From: Leptolyngbya sp. PCC 6406
Lineage (GTDB): Bacteria; Cyanobacteriota; Cyanobacteriia; Phormidesmidales; Phormidesmidaceae
Assembly: GCF_000332095.2 (NCBI RefSeq)
Contig: NZ_KI913950.1
Span: forward strand, 18,125 to 82,124
Direction: 5' to 3'
Length of the DNA stretch: 64,000 bases
A program made the position numbers and the translations under genes. Under the pieces are notes generated by a model. The model was not told the origin of the DNA. It saw nothing but the letters and a program-made list of their open reading frames with translations, and did not search any database. Shown here piece after piece: positions 1,463 through 20,519 of the stretch (position 1 is the first letter of the stretch; every line of letters begins with the position of its first letter).

Positions 1463-2218
1463 GTTTCCGTCCCCTTGCGGGGTAATGGATTTTGAACGAT
1501 ATCAACTCCCATTGCCTCGATAAGGCAAATACCTTTGGGTTTCCGTCCCCTTGCGGGGTAATGGATTTTGAACACGGGTAACCACGTGGGTACACAGGAT
1601 GTTCCTCATGTTTCCGTCCCCTTGCGGGGTAATGGATTTTGAACTCAGACGCTTGATGCGTCTGACCGCCGGCAAGTCACGTTTCCGTCCCCTTGCGGGG
1701 TAATGGATTTTGAACACCTAACCAATATCTAGAAGGATACCTAACTGGCTGTTTCCGTCCCCTTGCGGGGTAATAGATTTTGAACCAGTTTATCAATAGT
1801 CAGCAAGTAGTGACTGTTGTTATGGTTTCCGTCCCCTTGCGGGGTAATGGATTTTGAACCAAAAATGGAAAGCTCAAGTTAATTGGGCAAGAGACGTTTC
1901 CGTCCCCTTGCGGGGTAATGGATTTTGAACATGAGATTGTAGAGGTGTCGTCCGACTGTATATGGTTTCCGTCCCCTTGCGGGGTAATGGATTTTGAACT
2001 TGCGAGGCGCCTCAACCAGTTCAAAACTGAGTTGACCGTTTCCGTCCCCTTGCGGGGTAATGGATTTTGAACGTGTAACACGTCACGGAGGACAAACACC
2101 CTCCAAGACCAGGTTTCCGTCCCCTTGCGGGGTAATGGATTTTGAACGCCAAACTGCAGGTGTGGGGAGGTTGTAGTGGGGGGGTTTCCGTCCCCTTGCG
2201 GGGTAATGGATTTTGAAC
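1463..2218 (-). CRISPR. CRISPR array 1: 11 repeats, 10 spacers
   Basis: The 35-bp repeat reads on the + strand from GTTTCCGTCCCCTTGCGG to ATGGATTTTGAAC. Starts are 1463, 1539, 1610, 1681, 1751, 1825, 1896, 1965, 2038, 2113 and 2184; spacers are 34-41 bp. The copy at 1751 carries one change (TAATAG for TAATGG). On the minus strand the repeat starts GTTCAAAATCC and ends ACGGAAAC, the usual 3' end (8-nt handle) of cyanobacterial repeats, so transcription is inferred to run leftward. This agrees with a conserved leader at 2219-2412 and decay at the opposite end. The repeat matches that of array 2, so the RT-Cas1/Cas2 pair at 16.6-18.9 kb probably serves both. Confidence 0.97.
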
Positions 2219-13408: not shown

Positions 13409-14653
13409 GTTTCCGTCCCCTTGCGGGGTAATGGATTTTGAACGAGAACGATGTCGTCACCCCAGTTGGTGATGCATCTTCTGTTTCCGTCCCCTTGCGG
13501 GGTAATGGATTTTGAACCCCTCATGGCAAGCAAGCAGACGACGTTCCGTGGTTTCCGTCCCCTTGCGGGGTAATGGATTTTGAACCTTGCAGGCTATGAG
13601 GGAGAGTACTGAAGCCATAATGTTTCCGTCCCCTTGCGGGGTAATGGATTTTGAACTCGGTGCTGCCAACGCCTACGCTGGGACGCTCTATGGTTTCCGT
13701 CCCCTTGCGGGGTAATGGATTTTGAACTCATATACCACCGGGTGGTACTATGGGGCAGTTGGGTTTCCGTCCCCTTGCGGGGTAATGGATTTTGAACTGG
13801 TCCGGCACAGCTGAGCGCAGCTGCCCAGGCTAGTTTCCGTCCCCTTGCGGGGTAATGGATTTTGAACCGGGGTATTCCCCTCGCCGCTGCTCGCTGCCGC
13901 GTTTCCGTCCCCTTGCGGGGTAATGGATTTTGAACGTTCTGGATCACAGCATCCAGCTTTACGACCATCGCCATGCGTTTCCGTCCCCTTGCGGGGTAAT
14001 GGATTTTGAACAGGGACAGACACCTTCACCCAAGCGGATATCGATCGTTTCCGTCCCCTTGCGGGGTAATGGATTTTGAACCAGATGCAAACCTGCATTG
14101 ATGTGCGAACGCACATTGAGTTTCCGTCCCCTTGCGGGGTAATGGATTTTGAACGTTGGAAGGCAATTATGCTAGACAAGGCATTTCTGGCGTTTCCGTC
14201 CCCTTGCGGGGTAATGGATTTTGAACGATGCTATCCTGGCTGGTAAAGTCGTCGGGAGGTGTCGTTTCCGTCCCCTTGCGGGGTAATGGATTTTGAACTG
14301 AAAAATTTGATGCGTTTCTAAAAACATCTGGAGGTTTCCGTCCCCTTGCGGGGTAATGGATTTTGAACCTGACCAGATGATGGATCCAATGAGATACCAC
14401 GACCCGTTTCCGTCCCCTTGCGGGGTAATGGATTTTGAACGGCTTACGTGGCTCAGGCAGAGCTAGAACAGCTTGTGCAGTTTCCGTCCCCTTGCGGGGT
14501 AATGGATTTTGAACAGGAGGGAGTGCTATTTTACACCGACCTGGCTCTGTTTCCGTCCCCTTGCGGGGTAATGGATTTTGAACCAAGTCCGACTCCAAGC
14601 CCAAGCCCGATCCCAAGCGTTTCCGTCCCCTTGCGGGGTAATGGATTTTGAAC
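13409..14653 (-). CRISPR. CRISPR array 2: 18 repeats, 17 spacers
   Basis: The same 35-bp repeat as array 1. Starts are 13409, 13483, 13551, 13622, 13693, 13763, 13833, 13901, 13977, 14047, 14120, 14192, 14264, 14334, 14406, 14480, 14549 and 14619; all copies appear intact. Spacers are 33-41 bp and differ from those of array 1. Transcription is inferred leftward from the leader at 14654-14850, in the same direction as the adaptation operon. The leader-proximal (newest) spacer 14584-14618 is itself repetitive (CAAGCCCAAGCCCGATCCC). Targets cannot be named without a search. Confidence 0.98.
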
Positions 14654-14850
14654 CCCCGGCTTCTGGAAGCCTTACGGAGCAAGGGTTTCAGAAGCCGTTT
14701 TCGCTAGGGTTCAACGGAAGTCAAAATAATTGCGAATTGCTGTCAATAAACCCCTGTGGAAAACGGCTGAAAGCGTTGCAGGGTAAGCGATTCGCTAGGG
14801 TTGACGAGATAATGCGGTTTTCAAGGATCGGTAGACCCTAGCGAAAGCGC
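14654..14850 (-). promoter_or_regulatory. Leader of CRISPR array 2
   Basis: It aligns with the leader of array 1, sharing the ~29-bp block 14719-14747 (containing TTGACA on the minus strand) and the core GCGGTTTTCAAGGATCGG. The arm TTCGCTAGGG occurs at 14700-14709 and 14791-14800 and inverted (CCCTAGCGAA) at 14836-14845, so 14791-14845 can form a 10-bp hairpin at the place of the 13-bp hairpin in leader 1. A longer imperfect inverted repeat (GCCGTTTT / AAAACGGC) lies in its first half. Confidence 0.75.
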
Positions 14851-14871
14851 TAGCTCTTGGTAGAGAATAAC

Positions 14872-14889
14872 CCCAGAATTGGTTCTGGG
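14872..14889 (-). terminator. Hairpin after the DUF2325 gene
   Basis: CCCAGAA, four-base loop, TTCTGGG, 13 bp beyond the DUF2325 stop codon. It lacks a clear T-run, so it is only a possible terminator or RNA-end stabiliser separating the adaptation operon from the array leader. Confidence 0.4.
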
Positions 14890-14902
14890 TGACAAAAACG
14901 AA

Positions 14903-15634
14903 TTATTTCTCCATATTTTGGCGATTCACATGGTAGAGGATGTCGCGCAGGACACCGCTTTTGCCGTGGCAGTTCAGCAAAACGACTTCTCCCTTGAGAG
15001 ATCCGGAGGCTTGTAAGCCATAGATGGCATGGGTGAGTGGGTGGCTCATATAGTCTGCAATGATCACGATCAGGTCGCAGCGGCTAAGTTTTTTCTTGAG
15101 TTTGTGCTTGCGGATGCTGGCCTCATGTAAAGGGGGAATGGTGACCCAGTGCTTGAGGCCGTAATGGGTGGTGAGGGCTTCAATCACACCGCGTCGGGTG
15201 GCGGGGTGGCCCCCCACTAGGCCCAACACCAGCATCGATAAATCGGGGAGTGGGGCTGTGGGAATAGCCTCAGTTGGGGGTAGGAGGGTCGTAGTCTGGG
15301 GCTGTTGCTGGTCAGTATGGGTTTGGGTGATGTATCCCAACAACTCCTGGACTTGCTGCTCTAGTTCCCACACCTGGAGTTGGAGGTCGTCCCGTTCATC
15401 CTCCGCCTGTTTTTTCAGGGTGGTTAGCCCCCGTATTTCCAGATGGGTCAGACGTTGGTTTTCTGTCGCTTTTTGTTGCATCAGGTTTTGCTCAGCCTGC
15501 AAGGTCGAGAGATGCTTCATCAGGCGACGCTTGTCACGGCGATCTTGCCCTGAGAGGCTACGGATCAGGCATTGAAGGGATGCTTGTAATGCCCAAAAGC
15601 CTTGGCTGAGCCAGGTTAGGAGCGGTTTTAGCAT
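14903..15634 (-). CDS. Coiled-coil DUF2325 protein, CRISPR-adaptation neighbour
   Basis: A 243-residue protein. A short hydrophobic N-terminus (LTWLSQGFWALQASLQCLI) is followed by a long coiled coil (about residues 35-115: HLSTLQAEQNLMQQKATENQRL...DDLQLQVWELEQQVQELL) and a Pro/Thr linker. The C-terminal DUF2325 domain (about 135-243: LVLGLVGGHPATRRGVIEAL, DLIVIIADYMSHPLTHAIY, EVVLLNCHGKSGVLRDILYHV) is a small Rossmann-like fold. It is the last gene of the adaptation operon, five bases after the four-helix protein, so it is probably co-expressed. Its biochemical function is not known to me; a role in adaptation is inference from position. Confidence 0.8.
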   Translation of the reverse strand: MLKPLLTWLSQGFWALQASLQCLIRSLSGQDRRDKRRLMKHLSTLQAEQNLMQQKATENQRLTHLEIRGLTTLKKQAEDERDDLQLQVWELEQQVQELLGYITQTHTDQQQPQTTTLLPPTEAIPTAPLPDLSMLVLGLVGGHPATRRGVIEALTTHYGLKHWVTIPPLHEASIRKHKLKKKLSRCDLIVIIADYMSHPLTHAIYGLQASGSLKGEVVLLNCHGKSGVLRDILYHVNRQNMEK

Positions 15635-15638
15635 GGGG

Positions 15639-16025
15639 TTACTCCAGAGGCTTAATCCAAACAGTGGCGTTGTCGGCTAATCGTTCTAGGGCGGCAAAAA
15701 TGGTTCGGTAATGGCCAAACAATTCTTGGCCCCGTTCGGGATCCAGGTACCCACATCGAATGGCGACTTGGACCCAGGTCTGCATTTCCGCCGCCTCTGC
15801 TTGGGCATCGCTAAGCTTGGCCACAAATGCCTTGCGATAGCGGCGCTTGCCCCAGGCTTCGGCGATGCTGGCACAGACCGATCGCGATGCCGTCAAGGAT
15901 TGCCGAGTCAGGAGCGCTTGCTCCTCGGAAGGAAATCGACGAGATACCTCAAAGATCTGAGCTGAGCACTCGAAGGCCAATTGATAAACCTGGAGTTCTT
16001 GGTAGCTGTGGATGAAGTCTTGCAT
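15639..16025 (-). CDS. Four-helix-bundle protein (S23/Avd-like), copy 1
   Basis: A 128-residue protein from ATG 16025; upstream codons are minisatellite. The family signature is clear: ELQVYQLAFECSAQIFEVSRRFPSEEQALLTRQSLTASRSVCASIAEAWGKRRYRKAFVAKLSDAQAEAAEMQTWVQVAIRCGYL. This is the 23S-rRNA-intervening-sequence-protein family (PF05635/TIGR02436), the fold shared by the accessory protein Avd of diversity-generating retroelements. Avd is a basic pentameric bundle that binds the DGR reverse transcriptase and RNA. Here the gene lies downstream of RT-cas1 and cas2, so an RT-accessory role is an attractive but unproven inference. Confidence 0.85.
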   Translation of the reverse strand: MQDFIHSYQELQVYQLAFECSAQIFEVSRRFPSEEQALLTRQSLTASRSVCASIAEAWGKRRYRKAFVAKLSDAQAEAAEMQTWVQVAIRCGYLDPERGQELFGHYRTIFAALERLADNATVWIKPLE

Positions 16026-16200
16026 GGGGGGAGTGGGGGAGATGGGGGGTGGGGAGATGGGGAGTGGGGTGTTGGGGTATTGGGGTGTTGGGGTGTTGGG
16101 GTGTTGGGGTATTGGGGACATTGGTAGGGGCGAGCGGTGCTCGCCTTGCCAGGGATCGGGGGACATTGGTAGAGGCGAGCGGTGCTCGCCCTGTCAGGGC
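16026..16200. repeat. GGGGTGTTG minisatellite and twin dispersed units
   Basis: Repeats of GGGGTGTTGGGGTATTG (16060-16118) are followed by two copies of GGTAGGGGCGAGCGGTGCTCGCC (about 16122 and 16169), each with an 18-bp GGCGAGC...GCTCGCC hairpin. They separate the two four-helix genes without closing the operon. Confidence 0.75.
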
Positions 16201-16221
16201 ATGGGGAGATCGCTGTTCCCC

Positions 16222-16641
16222 TTAGGCTGTGGCGGGCAAGTCGTCTGGGGTGTCTGCAATGGGTTGCGTTTTCTCAGCTAGGGCGCTTTCCATTAGGTGA
16301 TCAAGGACGGTGTAGAGGTGGCGATAGCGGTCATGGAGATCTTGGGCGGCCTCTGGGCTGAGGTATCCGGTGGCAACTGCCGCCTCAATCCAGGTCTGCA
16401 TTTCCGCCGCTTGCAGTTGGGCGGTACTGAGTTGCTCGATCAAGGCAGCCCGCTGTCGCCGCGTGCCCCAGGCGGCGGCAATGTGGGCGCGGACGCTATG
16501 GGCGGTGGCTAAAAGGCGGCGGGGCACATCGTCATCGCGATGGGTGGGAAAGTCTAGGGCTAGGGCGTATACGTCAATTGAGCAACGCCGCGCCAACTGA
16601 TAGACAGCCAAGTCTCGGAAGCTTTGGGTAGAACTTTGCAT
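16222..16641 (-). CDS. Four-helix-bundle protein (S23/Avd-like), copy 2
   Basis: A 139-residue paralogue of the protein at 15639-16025, with the same blocks: FRDLAVYQLARRCSIDVYALALDFPTH, LLATAHSVRAHIAAAWGTRRQRAALIEQLSTAQLQAAEMQTWIEAAVATGYL. A polar tail (TQPIADTPDDLPATA) is added. ATG 16641 is chosen; a TTG at 16659 would overlap the cas2 stop. The two copies are clearly diverged, so they may form hetero-oligomers or have separate partners. It starts 15 bp after cas2 in the same direction. Confidence 0.85.
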   Translation of the reverse strand: MQSSTQSFRDLAVYQLARRCSIDVYALALDFPTHRDDDVPRRLLATAHSVRAHIAAAWGTRRQRAALIEQLSTAQLQAAEMQTWIEAAVATGYLSPEAAQDLHDRYRHLYTVLDHLMESALAEKTQPIADTPDDLPATA

Positions 16642-16655
16642 GGTGAAGTCTCCGG

Positions 16656-16934
16656 TCAAACAATAAAGGCAACGTCGTCCACTTCTCGTTGGGGTTGTAG
16701 GCCCAAAACGAGCACCTTTTTGCGGTAGCGAGGGGATAGGGGATAAAACCGCACTTGGTCTTCGTCGGGATTGATGTATCGGTTCAGCCTGCGGTGCAAC
16801 ATGTCTCGCTGATCAGGACTCAGCACGCATTCAAAGACCGACTTCTGCACCCTCATGCCATAGCCTTCGAGTAGGTGGGCGACCTTGTTGCGACGGCGAT
16901 CGAGGGTGATGTCGTAGGTGATGAGGTAGAACAT
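16656..16934 (-). CDS. cas2: CRISPR-associated protein Cas2
   Basis: A 92-residue protein, normal length for Cas2. The N-terminal ferredoxin-like strand and catalytic-type aspartate are seen in MFYLITYDITLDRRRNKVAHLLEGYGMRVQKSVFECVLS. The C-terminal strands include DEDQVRFYPLSPRYRKKVLVLG. Cas2 dimers bridge two Cas1 dimers in the integrase complex that inserts spacers at the leader-proximal repeat. The start codon overlaps the last base of the RT-Cas1 gene, implying translational coupling. Confidence 0.97.
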   Translation of the reverse strand: MFYLITYDITLDRRRNKVAHLLEGYGMRVQKSVFECVLSPDQRDMLHRRLNRYINPDEDQVRFYPLSPRYRKKVLVLGLQPQREVDDVAFIV

Positions 16935-18913
16935 TATTTCTCCATCCTCATTGGCCTATACACCGACTGTTCCCCCGTTAGGCAGGCCACATATTCCCAA
17001 ACCTGAAGCTCAAAACAGCGGCGGTAGCTGACCTTGTAACCTGTATGGGGATGGGTGACGGTGTGCTGCAACTTCTCCTCCCAGTGCTTGAGAAATCGCT
17101 TCATAGCATCGGGATAGAGGTATACCCCGCCCCGTTCGTCCGGGGGGGTAAAGTCATCGGCCTTGAAAATGTTGGAGTTGATCAGGTAGGCCACGAGGGA
17201 ATCGACGACCACGGCCCGAAACTCCTCTACCAGGTCACAGACTAGGGACGGGCGGTTTTCCCGTGGCACGTGGAGATTGCCAAAGTGGGTGTGTAACCCC
17301 ACCCCTTCGACCATGGCGTGGACATTTTGCGACAGCAGCGTGTAGCCCAGACTCAGCAGGCTATTGATCGGATCCGTCGGGGGGCGACGGGTGCGCTTTT
17401 CAAACTCAAATTCCCCCTTCAACAGAGAGGCATAGGCTTGAAAATAGGCACTGGCTCCGGTGCCCTCATAGCCCAACATCGCCTCCACCGACTCAACGCT
17501 GGGCACCGTCTGCATCAACTCCGCTAGGGTGTCGATGGCTTGGGTGGCCAGTTCCGTTTTGCGCCGTCGGTTCAGCCGTTGCAACAAAATGCGGGAGTTG
17601 TGCAACTTGCCCACAATAATGCTGGCCGCCTGGGTGCGAATAAACTCAGGGTCTTGAGCTTTGTATACCTGCTGGGTCAAGTAATCGAGCTTGGCTTGAC
17701 CCGTCGTCTGCAATCGGCCAAAATAGCGCCCCTTGTTGGATAAATACAGCAACGGGATGCGCCGCTGTAGGGCCAGCCTCACCGCCCCATGGGAGACATT
17801 GCAACAGCCAAATAGCACCACATGGCTGATGCGGCTAGCGGGGACAGAACACCGCAATTCCTGCTGATGAAAAACCTGAAACTGCTGATGTTGAACCCGC
17901 AGATAGGCCCCTTGATCCGTCACGTATAACGTCGTCATACCGTCCCTCCAATATTCGTCAGTGGATGTAGCGAGAATGCGTTTCGGGGGTTTCACGATGC
18001 TGCACACCATGGGCGGCCCCCACCTCGCCCCAGGCTTGCTTGCCCTTCGACTCCGCTCAGGGCCTTCTGCCTTCTGCCTTTCTGGCCCTTCCACCTCGCC
18101 GTTGTGAAACCGATGGCCTAGAAAGACAAACGCCTCCCCCGGCGGAATAATCTGCGTCTTTTCGGGGTGCAGGCTGAGGTATAGATCCTCGATCCAGTCC
18201 TGCATCAGCGCTAGGGACCGGGTTGCTTCCAAATAGCTCTGGCACACCGCCACGCAATCATCGCCATAGCGCACCAGGTCAATGTCAGCGGCGAGACAGC
18301 GGCGGTCAAAATCGTTCAGATACAGATTGGCCAGGGCACCGGACAAAATGCTGCCCTGGAGCACCCCTTGATTAGGGCGCTGGAAGTGGCCGCGAATGAC
18401 AATGCCTGCTTTGAGCTGTTGCTCAATCCACCGCATCCAAACGGGCGGCAATGGCAATTGATCTAATTGATGGAGCAACAGCGGCCACGATAGGCGGTCA
18501 AAAAACTGCTGAATGTCCGCCTTAATCACCCAAGCGGGTTGGTGACGATAGCGTGTCATCACCTGCGCCACAGCGGTATAAATCGAGAGGCCGGGACGAT
18601 AGGCAAAGGTTGCCTCACTGAACGTGTTTTCTAGGTGGGGATAGATCCCTTGCAGCAGATACCGCTGCACAATGCGATCCTTTACCGTGGGGATGCCAAT
18701 GAGGCGATCGCCCCCGGTCTTTTTCGGTAGATAAAAGCCCTTGGCGGGGCTAGCGACATACCGCTCCTGCCGCATCTGCTGATGCAGCAGCCGAATTTGT
18801 TCTTGGGCAATGCCCTTAAACAAATCCACGGTGATGCCATCAACCCCAGCGGCAGGACTGCCGCGCTGCACTAGGTGCCAAGCAGTCGCGAGTTGTTCTG
18901 GATAAAGCTGCAT
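16934..18913 (-). CDS. cas1: Reverse transcriptase-Cas1 fusion protein
   Basis: A 659-residue fusion. Residues 15-275 are a group-II-intron-like RT: AGVDGIT (22-28), the fingers GIPTVKDRIVQR, catalytic KADIQQFFD (131-139), QGSILSG (186-192) and YGDD (216-219; the common form is YADD). Residues 327-659 are Cas1, with the metal ligands E483 (GYEGTG), the HTHFGN histidines (541-543) and D560/E563-564. Such fusions can acquire spacers from RNA by copying it to DNA and usually accompany type III systems. No separate Cas6 domain is present. The linker, about 275-300 (EGPERQKAEGPERSRRASK), is encoded by an inserted minisatellite. It heads the leftward operon with cas2. Confidence 0.97.
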   Translation of the reverse strand: MQLYPEQLATAWHLVQRGSPAAGVDGITVDLFKGIAQEQIRLLHQQMRQERYVASPAKGFYLPKKTGGDRLIGIPTVKDRIVQRYLLQGIYPHLENTFSEATFAYRPGLSIYTAVAQVMTRYRHQPAWVIKADIQQFFDRLSWPLLLHQLDQLPLPPVWMRWIEQQLKAGIVIRGHFQRPNQGVLQGSILSGALANLYLNDFDRRCLAADIDLVRYGDDCVAVCQSYLEATRSLALMQDWIEDLYLSLHPEKTQIIPPGEAFVFLGHRFHNGEVEGPERQKAEGPERSRRASKPGARWGPPMVCSIVKPPKRILATSTDEYWRDGMTTLYVTDQGAYLRVQHQQFQVFHQQELRCSVPASRISHVVLFGCCNVSHGAVRLALQRRIPLLYLSNKGRYFGRLQTTGQAKLDYLTQQVYKAQDPEFIRTQAASIIVGKLHNSRILLQRLNRRRKTELATQAIDTLAELMQTVPSVESVEAMLGYEGTGASAYFQAYASLLKGEFEFEKRTRRPPTDPINSLLSLGYTLLSQNVHAMVEGVGLHTHFGNLHVPRENRPSLVCDLVEEFRAVVVDSLVAYLINSNIFKADDFTPPDERGGVYLYPDAMKRFLKHWEEKLQHTVTHPHTGYKVSYRRCFELQVWEYVACLTGEQSVYRPMRMEK

Positions 18914-19112: not shown

Positions 19113-20519
19113 ATGCCTCGTTCTGTTGCGGTTCACCCTGTCCATAGACAAACGGTTGCGTTAGCCCTCCAGCGCAATGGCTTTCTGACGCAAGGGGATT
19201 TGGCGGCTCACCTAGAGATTGCGCTGTCAACGGTGAGTAACTTTTGCCGAGGGGTGAGGGTTTCGATCGCAAAATTTGAGGAGATTTCTGACGCCCTAGG
19301 GCTAGATGCCAGAACCTTGATTCAGGCCCAGGGGAGGGATGCTGCGGTTTCTGAAACTGAAGCCCCGCCTGCTTTCTATGCCTATGACGAGGGCTGGGTG
19401 GGGCGGGAAACTTGGGTGGAAATCCTGCAACAGCAGGTGTCTGCTGGGTGTCGCCTTCTGTTTATTACGGGCATTGCTGGGGTGGGAAAAACGGCCTTGG
19501 CGGAGCGGTTGTTGATGGCCTTGGCTGATTGGGGGCCACCCCTACGGGAGAATTTTGATGCTCAGGATCAGGGGGCCGACTTTGCCAGTGTGGCCGCCCG
19601 TTGGCTAGAAAAGCTGGGGCAGGGGGTAACCCCTTGCGATCGCGCCGATGTCCCCCAGTTATTGAACCGCCTGAGCGAGGCTTTGCAGGGGACTCGGCGA
19701 CTGGTGCTGATTGATTCCCTAGAGGAAATCCTGTGGGGGAGTGAGGCAGCGGAGGGCAGTGAGTTTCAAGACCCGGTGTTTCTGCAATTTTTTCAACGAC
19801 TGCTGGCGGCAGAGTCCTGCCAGAGTTGTGTGGTGGTGACCACCCAGACGTTGCCCACCCAACTGCTGACCTATGGCACCCGGTACCGCAACTTTTGGGC
19901 CACCCACCTGTTGCCCGGATTGTCCGCCCCTGAGCAGTTGGCGCTGTTTGCTAAGACAGGTTTGGCGGTGAGTCCCGATACGGAGGCCCACGGTTACTTG
20001 GTGCGATTGGGGCAAGCCTATGAGGGCCATCCCCTGGCCTTGCGGGTGATGGCTGGGGAGATGGGCAGTCGTCCGTTTTATGGCAATGTGGTCGCCTATT
20101 GGCAGCGCTATGGTCAGGAAATTGAGCAAGTGGAGCAGGCGATCGCTGAGGCAGCGGCAGGGCAGGCGGTTGGGGCTGAGGACAAGTGGCGGCTGGATCG
20201 CTTTACCCGCACCCTGCGCCGGAATGTGCGGGCGCGATTAGAACAGACCTTCCTGCGCCTGCGCCAGGAGGCAAAATTTGCCTATGTGTTGCTGTGCGAA
20301 GCTGCTGTTTATCGCTGTGCTGTGCCGGAAGATTGGTGGCTGAGCCATTTGGACTACTGGGACTGTGATGGTGAGACGGCCACAGCAGCGTTGGATGCCC
20401 TGCGCGATCGCTTTGTGGTGGAGGAAGCGATCGCCGCCGGTCAATATACTCTGCGGCAACATACCCTGATTCGTAGCTTGGCCTTAGACCACTTCCAGCA
20501 CCTGGATCAGCTGTCTTGA
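19113..20519 (+). CDS. HTH / NB-ARC STAND ATPase without sensor repeats
   Basis: A 468-residue protein. Residues 13-70 form an XRE-like HTH (VALALQRNGFLTQGDLAAHLEIALSTVSNFCRG). An NB-ARC ATPase follows (about 95-350) with Walker A GIAGVGKTAL, Walker B RLVLIDSLEE and the GHPLALRVMAGEM block (the GxPLA motif). The C-terminal winged-helix-like region ends at TLRQHTLIRSLALDHF. STAND proteins normally carry TPR or WD40 sensors after this point, but none are present, so the protein is either a short form or truncated. Such proteins act as ligand-gated switches in defence or regulation. It diverges from the RT-cas1 operon. Confidence 0.82.
   Translation: MPRSVAVHPVHRQTVALALQRNGFLTQGDLAAHLEIALSTVSNFCRGVRVSIAKFEEISDALGLDARTLIQAQGRDAAVSETEAPPAFYAYDEGWVGRETWVEILQQQVSAGCRLLFITGIAGVGKTALAERLLMALADWGPPLRENFDAQDQGADFASVAARWLEKLGQGVTPCDRADVPQLLNRLSEALQGTRRLVLIDSLEEILWGSEAAEGSEFQDPVFLQFFQRLLAAESCQSCVVVTTQTLPTQLLTYGTRYRNFWATHLLPGLSAPEQLALFAKTGLAVSPDTEAHGYLVRLGQAYEGHPLALRVMAGEMGSRPFYGNVVAYWQRYGQEIEQVEQAIAEAAAGQAVGAEDKWRLDRFTRTLRRNVRARLEQTFLRLRQEAKFAYVLLCEAAVYRCAVPEDWWLSHLDYWDCDGETATAALDALRDRFVVEEAIAAGQYTLRQHTLIRSLALDHFQHLDQLS

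Follow-up and report, generated by a model that had tools for sequence, protein, structure and literature searches.

The way in which RT-Cas1 systems select their RNA and deal with it is an open question, and the locus studied here raises it in a specific form: do the two four-helix proteins encoded directly behind rt-cas1 and cas2 take part in spacer acquisition and, if so, in which way? The window, i.e. the whole 64,000-nucleotide stretch of DNA from Leptolyngbya sp. PCC 6406 that was analysed, carries on its minus strand, closely packed and in this order, rt-cas1 (16934..18913), cas2 (16656..16934; PF09827, 5.5e-26), S23A at the first position after cas2 (16222..16641), S23B at the second (15639..16025), a gene for a DUF2325-like protein consisting of a coiled coil and a Rossmann-type domain, which is the operon's fourth accessory gene (14903..15634), a segment presumed to be the leader from its position between operon and array (14654..14902) and a CRISPR array comprising 18 repeats of GTTCAAAATCCATTACCCCGCAAGGGGACGGAAAC (13409..14653). 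The minus-strand repeat ends in ACGGAAAC, which we take to be a type III-like 5' handle, so that operon, leader and array are co-directional. As the DUF2325-like gene starts about 5 bases past S23B, the unit is longer than the segment 15639-18913 to which the original prediction had referred. Translation of S23B probably starts at the ATG at 16025; in the longest open reading frame of this gene the N-terminal 47 residues correspond to a translated proline-rich repeat. An Rfam scan of the window gave zero matches, hence it contains no known RNA element. Divergent from rt-cas1, a gene encoding a helix-turn-helix and a STAND-type ATPase is present at 19113-20519 on the plus strand.

RT-Cas1 is a fusion of a group II-intron-like reverse transcriptase with Cas1 (RVT_1 3e-32, Cas_Cas1 4e-90 in Pfam/NCBIfam) in which both the YGDD motif of the reverse transcriptase (aa 216) and the Cas1 catalytic motifs are intact, while the Pfam/NCBIfam domain annotation reveals no Cas6 domain. 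With active-site motifs, cas2 and array all present, the locus constitutes an RT-Cas1 CRISPR adaptation module. The linker of RT-Cas1 harbours an in-frame repeat of the GAAGGCAGAAGG type (18010-18085), which is also found elsewhere in the window.

The description of the two small genes as co-directional, diverged genes for S23/IVP-type four-helix proteins is borne out by their PF05635 scores of 56.6 bits (S23A; 3.5e-15) and 86.4 bits (S23B; 1.9e-24) compared to a curated cut-off of 33.8. S23B is a conserved member of this family and detects the S23 structures 2gsc (4e-10) and 2rld (1e-9) in the PDB by sequence, while S23A is divergent and fast-evolving, its AEAW motif being changed to AAAW. 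The AF2 single-chain model of S23A (pLDDT 89) displays four helices. Thus, the four-helix fold of solved S23/IVP proteins is present in S23A according to the model and in S23B according to its sequence. In VIA-align the S23A model best matches BT_0352 (2rld, Z 18.4) and XCC0516 (2gsc, Z 17.0), followed by Avd of diversity-generating retroelements (DGRs), both in the DGR ribonucleoprotein (8ub8, Z 15.9) and alone (4dwl, Z 14.8), with unrelated bundles reaching Z values of up to about 14; on this ranking the fold of S23A is that of S23 first and that of Avd second. The designation "Avd-like" hence holds for the fold (8ub8, Z 15.9) and fails for the family. Of the Avd sequence models, PF22296 gives S23B 17 bits (cut-off 40) and NF033474 gives it 14.6 bits (cut-off 80), both at noise level, and S23A yields zero matches, so that membership of S23A and S23B in the Avd family was rejected.

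The crystal structures 2gsc and 2rld contain five chains each, for which reason a pentameric assembly of S23A/S23B appears likely by analogy; a reference entry in PMC10053308 describes XCC0516 as five four-helix bundles. The net charge amounts to about -3 for S23A and about -1 for S23B compared to +3 for solo S23 proteins, i.e. the mildly positive net charge seen in the solo proteins is gone from the linked ones. Avd, in contrast, which binds its reverse transcriptase and the template RNA and is needed for RT activity, is a basic nucleic-acid binder, and since the linked S23 proteins lack a positive net charge, the notion of RNA capture by a positively charged ring is unsupported in its simple form. 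In their net charge these proteins are unlike a generally basic nucleic-acid binder, which counts against the reading as accessory subunits favoured below.

To assess how far the gene arrangement extends, RT-Cas1 loci were gathered by several searches and annotated with custom-built profiles. Recurrence of the linkage in other genomes, named beforehand as one of the points on which the proposal would stand or fall, is indeed observed: within one RT-Cas1 clade all 20 loci that can be judged (20 of 20) have a co-directional S23 gene directly behind cas2, whereas the 23 sister-clade sequences have none at this position. Seventeen of the linked loci are contiguous, including L027 and L038 whose S23 gene is broken or cut, and three are split over contig ends (L007+L155, L012+L158 and L084+L157), the contig breaking after rt-cas1 or cas2 and the missing S23 genes being located at the start or end of another contig of the same genome. 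Two S23 copies are present in 11 loci. At two further loci, L024 and L103, the sequence ends too early for the presence of S23 to be judged, and at L156, which encodes cas2 and both S23 proteins, a run of Ns starts at cas2 and rt-cas1 was not found. In the RT-Cas1 tree every S23-bearing sequence falls into one clade with a support of 1.0, from which we conclude that the linkage has one origin, not many. This clade includes Pseudanabaena galeata, whose plasmid pPg_04 shows the order RT-cas1, cas2, four-helix protein, DUF2325-domain protein. L030, considered as a counterexample, was rejected as such because it groups with the sister clade in a tree built from Cas1 only. Around some 95 other cas1 genes in 386 cyanobacterial genomes, compared by coordinates with an E cut-off of 1e-30 for the S23 search, the sole nearby S23 gene is an antisense solo copy in one genome (G229). 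Based on the 6 PF05635 genes in the 5.78-Mb genome, counted from search matches, about 0.001 same-strand S23 genes are expected by chance within 1.5 kb downstream of a given locus, which, in view of 20 out of 20 testable loci, excludes chance. S23 genes of the solo lineage were also encountered antisense beside rt-cas1 in three loci (L007:12012-12476, L010:4-435 and L116:7006-7629, all on the minus strand), which is above chance expectation.

In an IQ-TREE analysis of 54 domains the linked S23 proteins are separate from the solo S23 proteins of the same genomes (solo clade 94/100, S23A clade 100/100), with the S23A' proteins of the Phormidesmis group forming one further clade (100/100). Constraining all linked S23 proteins to group together entails zero likelihood cost, the FastTree support for this clade amounting to only 0.69. 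In two-copy loci the divergent S23 invariably comes first and the conserved one second. A single duplication giving rise to both S23A and S23A' is not cleanly rejected (p-AU 0.056), with two duplications being preferred. The distances among S23B proteins closely follow those among the RT-Cas1 proteins (r 0.93, p 0.0001, 11 loci), and a weaker correlation is found for S23A (r 0.41, p 0.012, 7 loci). Both genes are under purifying selection, dN/dS being 0.08-0.25 for S23A, 0.07-0.15 for S23B and 0.07-0.09 for rt-cas1, with dS near saturation in several pairs. Since the linkage arose once, distances and selection indicate retention and coevolution, not repeated recruitment. The RT-Cas1 proteins of the S23-linked clade are in turn marked by a linker that is 10 residues shorter owing to a deletion after residue 287; most of them also carry the exchange F220C, which places a cysteine directly after YGDD. 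Clade-specific substitutions number 7 in the reverse transcriptase, 1 in the linker and 10 in Cas1; as they are not enriched in the reverse transcriptase, coevolution focused on this domain was rejected. No S23 relatives were confirmed in viral contigs.

The DUF2325-like gene is conserved in sibling loci and is the fourth gene in most of them. Its product matches PF10087 weakly, below the cut-off, and the fold search with its AF2 model (pLDDT 81) returned generic Rossmann-type matches only (E 0.007 or worse). In Pseudanabaena the fourth gene encodes the DUF2325 domain alone, without the coiled coil. A subclade formed by L013, L014, L027, L085, L087 and L157 has as its fourth gene one for a protein made up of a zinc-ribbon (DUF7682) and a ParE-like domain; genes of this type follow S23B at L014:12652-13125, L097:11238-11702, L102:7497-8039 and L013:12675-13238. 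Should it be an RNA binder or nuclease of the RelE/ParE fold, its presence next to RT-Cas1 would merit attention in its own right. Where an array was detected, repeats of DUF2325 loci end in CCCCGCAAGGGGACGGAAAC or close variants within the clade, while ParE-like loci use another cyanobacterial repeat family, CTCAAAACTTC.TCGGAAGTTGAACTAATGGAAAC or close variants. This may hint at the fourth protein meeting the repeat or the leader, the independent switches being few. In L092 (7714-8484) and L155 (4396-5199) S23A and S23B are nearly identical while the DUF2325-like alleles are far apart (dN 0.62), which suggests an exchange of the DUF2325-like gene alone. Away from RT-Cas1, the DUF2325-like domain forms the C-terminus of TPR proteins of about 740 residues in other cyanobacteria (L159:8251-10461, L160:6147-8348, L161:7508-9730), one such protein being encoded on a conjugative Scytonema plasmid (L177). 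In Gloeothece verrucosa, which belongs to the sister clade, a small gene lies directly behind rt-cas1 and cas2 (L178:7360-7668 and L179), whose product looks RelE/ParE-like by eye and has no significant match in Pfam.

What, then, do the two S23 proteins do? As they always lie directly behind the integrase genes in this clade they are probably dedicated parts of the module; recurrence in one clade, absence from the sister clade and coevolution make it very probable that these parts are functional. We favour, with a probability of roughly 0.6, the reading that the RT-Cas1/Cas2 spacer-acquisition module has S23A and S23B as its dedicated accessory subunits, which help with RNA or cDNA prespacers. 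That they belong to the adaptation complex we regard as likely, and the help with prespacers as plausible. The original prediction had seen in them possible accessory factors of the Cas1-fused reverse transcriptase that capture or present RNA; of this, a part in the adaptation module is rendered likely by recurrent linkage, separate lineage, coevolution and purifying selection, and an Avd-like action on the reverse transcriptase or its RNA is a conjecture. The trees support a course of events in which the rt-cas1-cas2 operon acquired, on a single occasion, an S23 (PF05635) gene of the ordinary cyanobacterial kind that became fixed in one clade, followed by duplication, probably twice, into a conserved S23B and a fast diverging S23A. 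By analogy to S23 and Avd structures the proteins probably form a five-membered helical ring, perhaps of mixed A/B composition, which would probably dock on RT-Cas1/Cas2 and may help it to bind RNA or RNA/cDNA prespacers before their integration into the adjacent array. The existence of sister-clade RT-Cas1 proteins lacking S23 partners counts against accessory subunits, as do the single origin of the linkage and the lack of a concentration of clade-specific substitutions in the reverse transcriptase. A more far-reaching version, which we consider possible rather than probable, assumes an independent recruitment, by the CRISPR system, of a ring with the Avd fold which its reverse transcriptase requires as a cofactor, with mixed S23A/S23B binding RT-Cas1 and RNA and thereby making RNA-templated acquisition possible or selective, in parallel to RT and Avd of DGRs. 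The linker deletion and F220C point weakly to the reverse transcriptase as the target of the S23 proteins, as against substitutions spread over reverse transcriptase and Cas1.

These Cas1 changes, together with an operon that leads straight into leader and array and a fourth gene whose type changes with the repeat family inside the clade, would equally suit a ring which serves Cas1/Cas2 instead of the reverse transcriptase by holding or trimming prespacers or by positioning the complex at leader and repeat. Csn2 or IHF-type factors play such roles in other systems. Yet S23 proteins accompany only RT-bearing Cas1, not the other cas1 genes of the phylum, and Avd, the nearest functional precedent of the fold, serves a reverse transcriptase, so that we consider this arrangement rather unlikely. 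The ParE-like toxin domain, joined to a zinc-ribbon, in the protein encoded after S23B in one subclade, and the solo S23 genes elsewhere in these genomes, could further suggest that the additional genes represent a toxin-antitoxin-like or regulatory extension which guards the module or limits autoimmunity and has no role in acquisition. This appears improbable in view of S23 being retained in most loci, where the DUF2325-like gene takes the place of the ParE-like one, and of S23B distances closely following those of RT-Cas1; moreover, no S23 protein is known to us to act as a toxin or an antitoxin. That the S23 genes are mobile or hitchhiking and sit in the operon by accident could draw on the antisense solo-clade copies near rt-cas1 in L007, L010 and L116. 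The co-directional genes, however, form a separate lineage which is found in all 20 testable loci, evolves under purifying selection and is congruent with RT-Cas1, and mere hitchhiking, disfavoured and highly improbable, was rejected along with chance.

Like the cyanobacterial and Marinomonas MMB-1 RT-Cas1/Cas2 modules, the present one combines RT-Cas1 with an intact YxDD motif, cas2, an adjacent array and, within one replicon, a type III effector; it differs in that cas2 is followed by one or two S23 genes and by a gene of the DUF2325-like or zinc-ribbon/ParE-like type. The nearest cyanobacterial modules presumably correspond to clade RT-CRISPR-3 of Toro 2017. The RT-CRISPR papers examined do not mention S23, DUF2325-like or zinc-ribbon/ParE-like genes behind cas2, and in the open-access literature, with subscription papers lying outside the search, we found no report of PF05635 or other four-helix proteins tied to RT-Cas1. 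The S23 proteins are therefore probably undescribed parts of the spacer-acquisition machine. The MMB-1 adaptation operon holds an extra gene of unknown function, Marme_0670 (PMC5576922). Marinomonas RT-Cas1/Cas2 is active in vitro without S23-like partners, which counts against the reading as accessory subunits, and it is in its native host only that MMB-1 RT-Cas1 takes up spacers from RNA, for which host-specific factors have been proposed (PMC11014452). Being conserved, encoded in the operon and folded like a well-known bacterial RT cofactor, the S23 proteins are concrete candidates, and the unit of four to five genes lends itself to transfer into a laboratory strain and to examination gene by gene. 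With DGR Avd (bAvd; 4dwl, 8ub7/8ub8) they share the four-helix fold (Z 14.8-15.9, 1.7 Å rmsd) and, as small proteins, their encoding beside a reverse transcriptase; they differ by a sequence identity of 11%, by sub-threshold Avd sequence models and by a net charge that is not positive. No DGR template/variable repeat cassette was seen here; PF05635 is the commonest Pfam family near DGR reverse transcriptases (PMC10053308). With S23/IVP proteins (PF05635, TIGR02436; 2gsc, 2rld) they share the sequence family and the best structural match (Z 17-18), and differ in being encoded outside a 23S rRNA intervening sequence, in forming a lineage of their own that is bound to the operon, and in having a divergent paralogue.

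A type III-D effector (Cas10, Csx10, RAMPs, TIGR03985), with a cas1, cas2 and array of its own, is encoded on the same contig just outside the window (G000:C2, 5.5-17.8 kb), with matches to Cas10/Cmr2 (2e-40), Csx10 (3e-133) and further RAMPs at 9.2-17.3 kb, so that the genome harbouring RT-Cas1 also contains a type III effector. Near its end a second array in the window (1463..2218, minus strand) contains 11 copies of the main array's repeat in the same orientation, about 15 kb from rt-cas1. Judging from the shared repeat and contig, this effector would use the crRNAs resulting from acquisition. In L099 the array is followed, within a few kb downstream, by a similar module, and in Pseudanabaena a Csm module is located nearby. 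The array spacers gave zero matches to a phage collection. The contig, one of three in the genome, measures about 196 kb and is probably a plasmid. The same cas1 is present at both of its ends (1231-2133 and 191731-192633), probably reflecting the assembly overlap of a circular plasmid.
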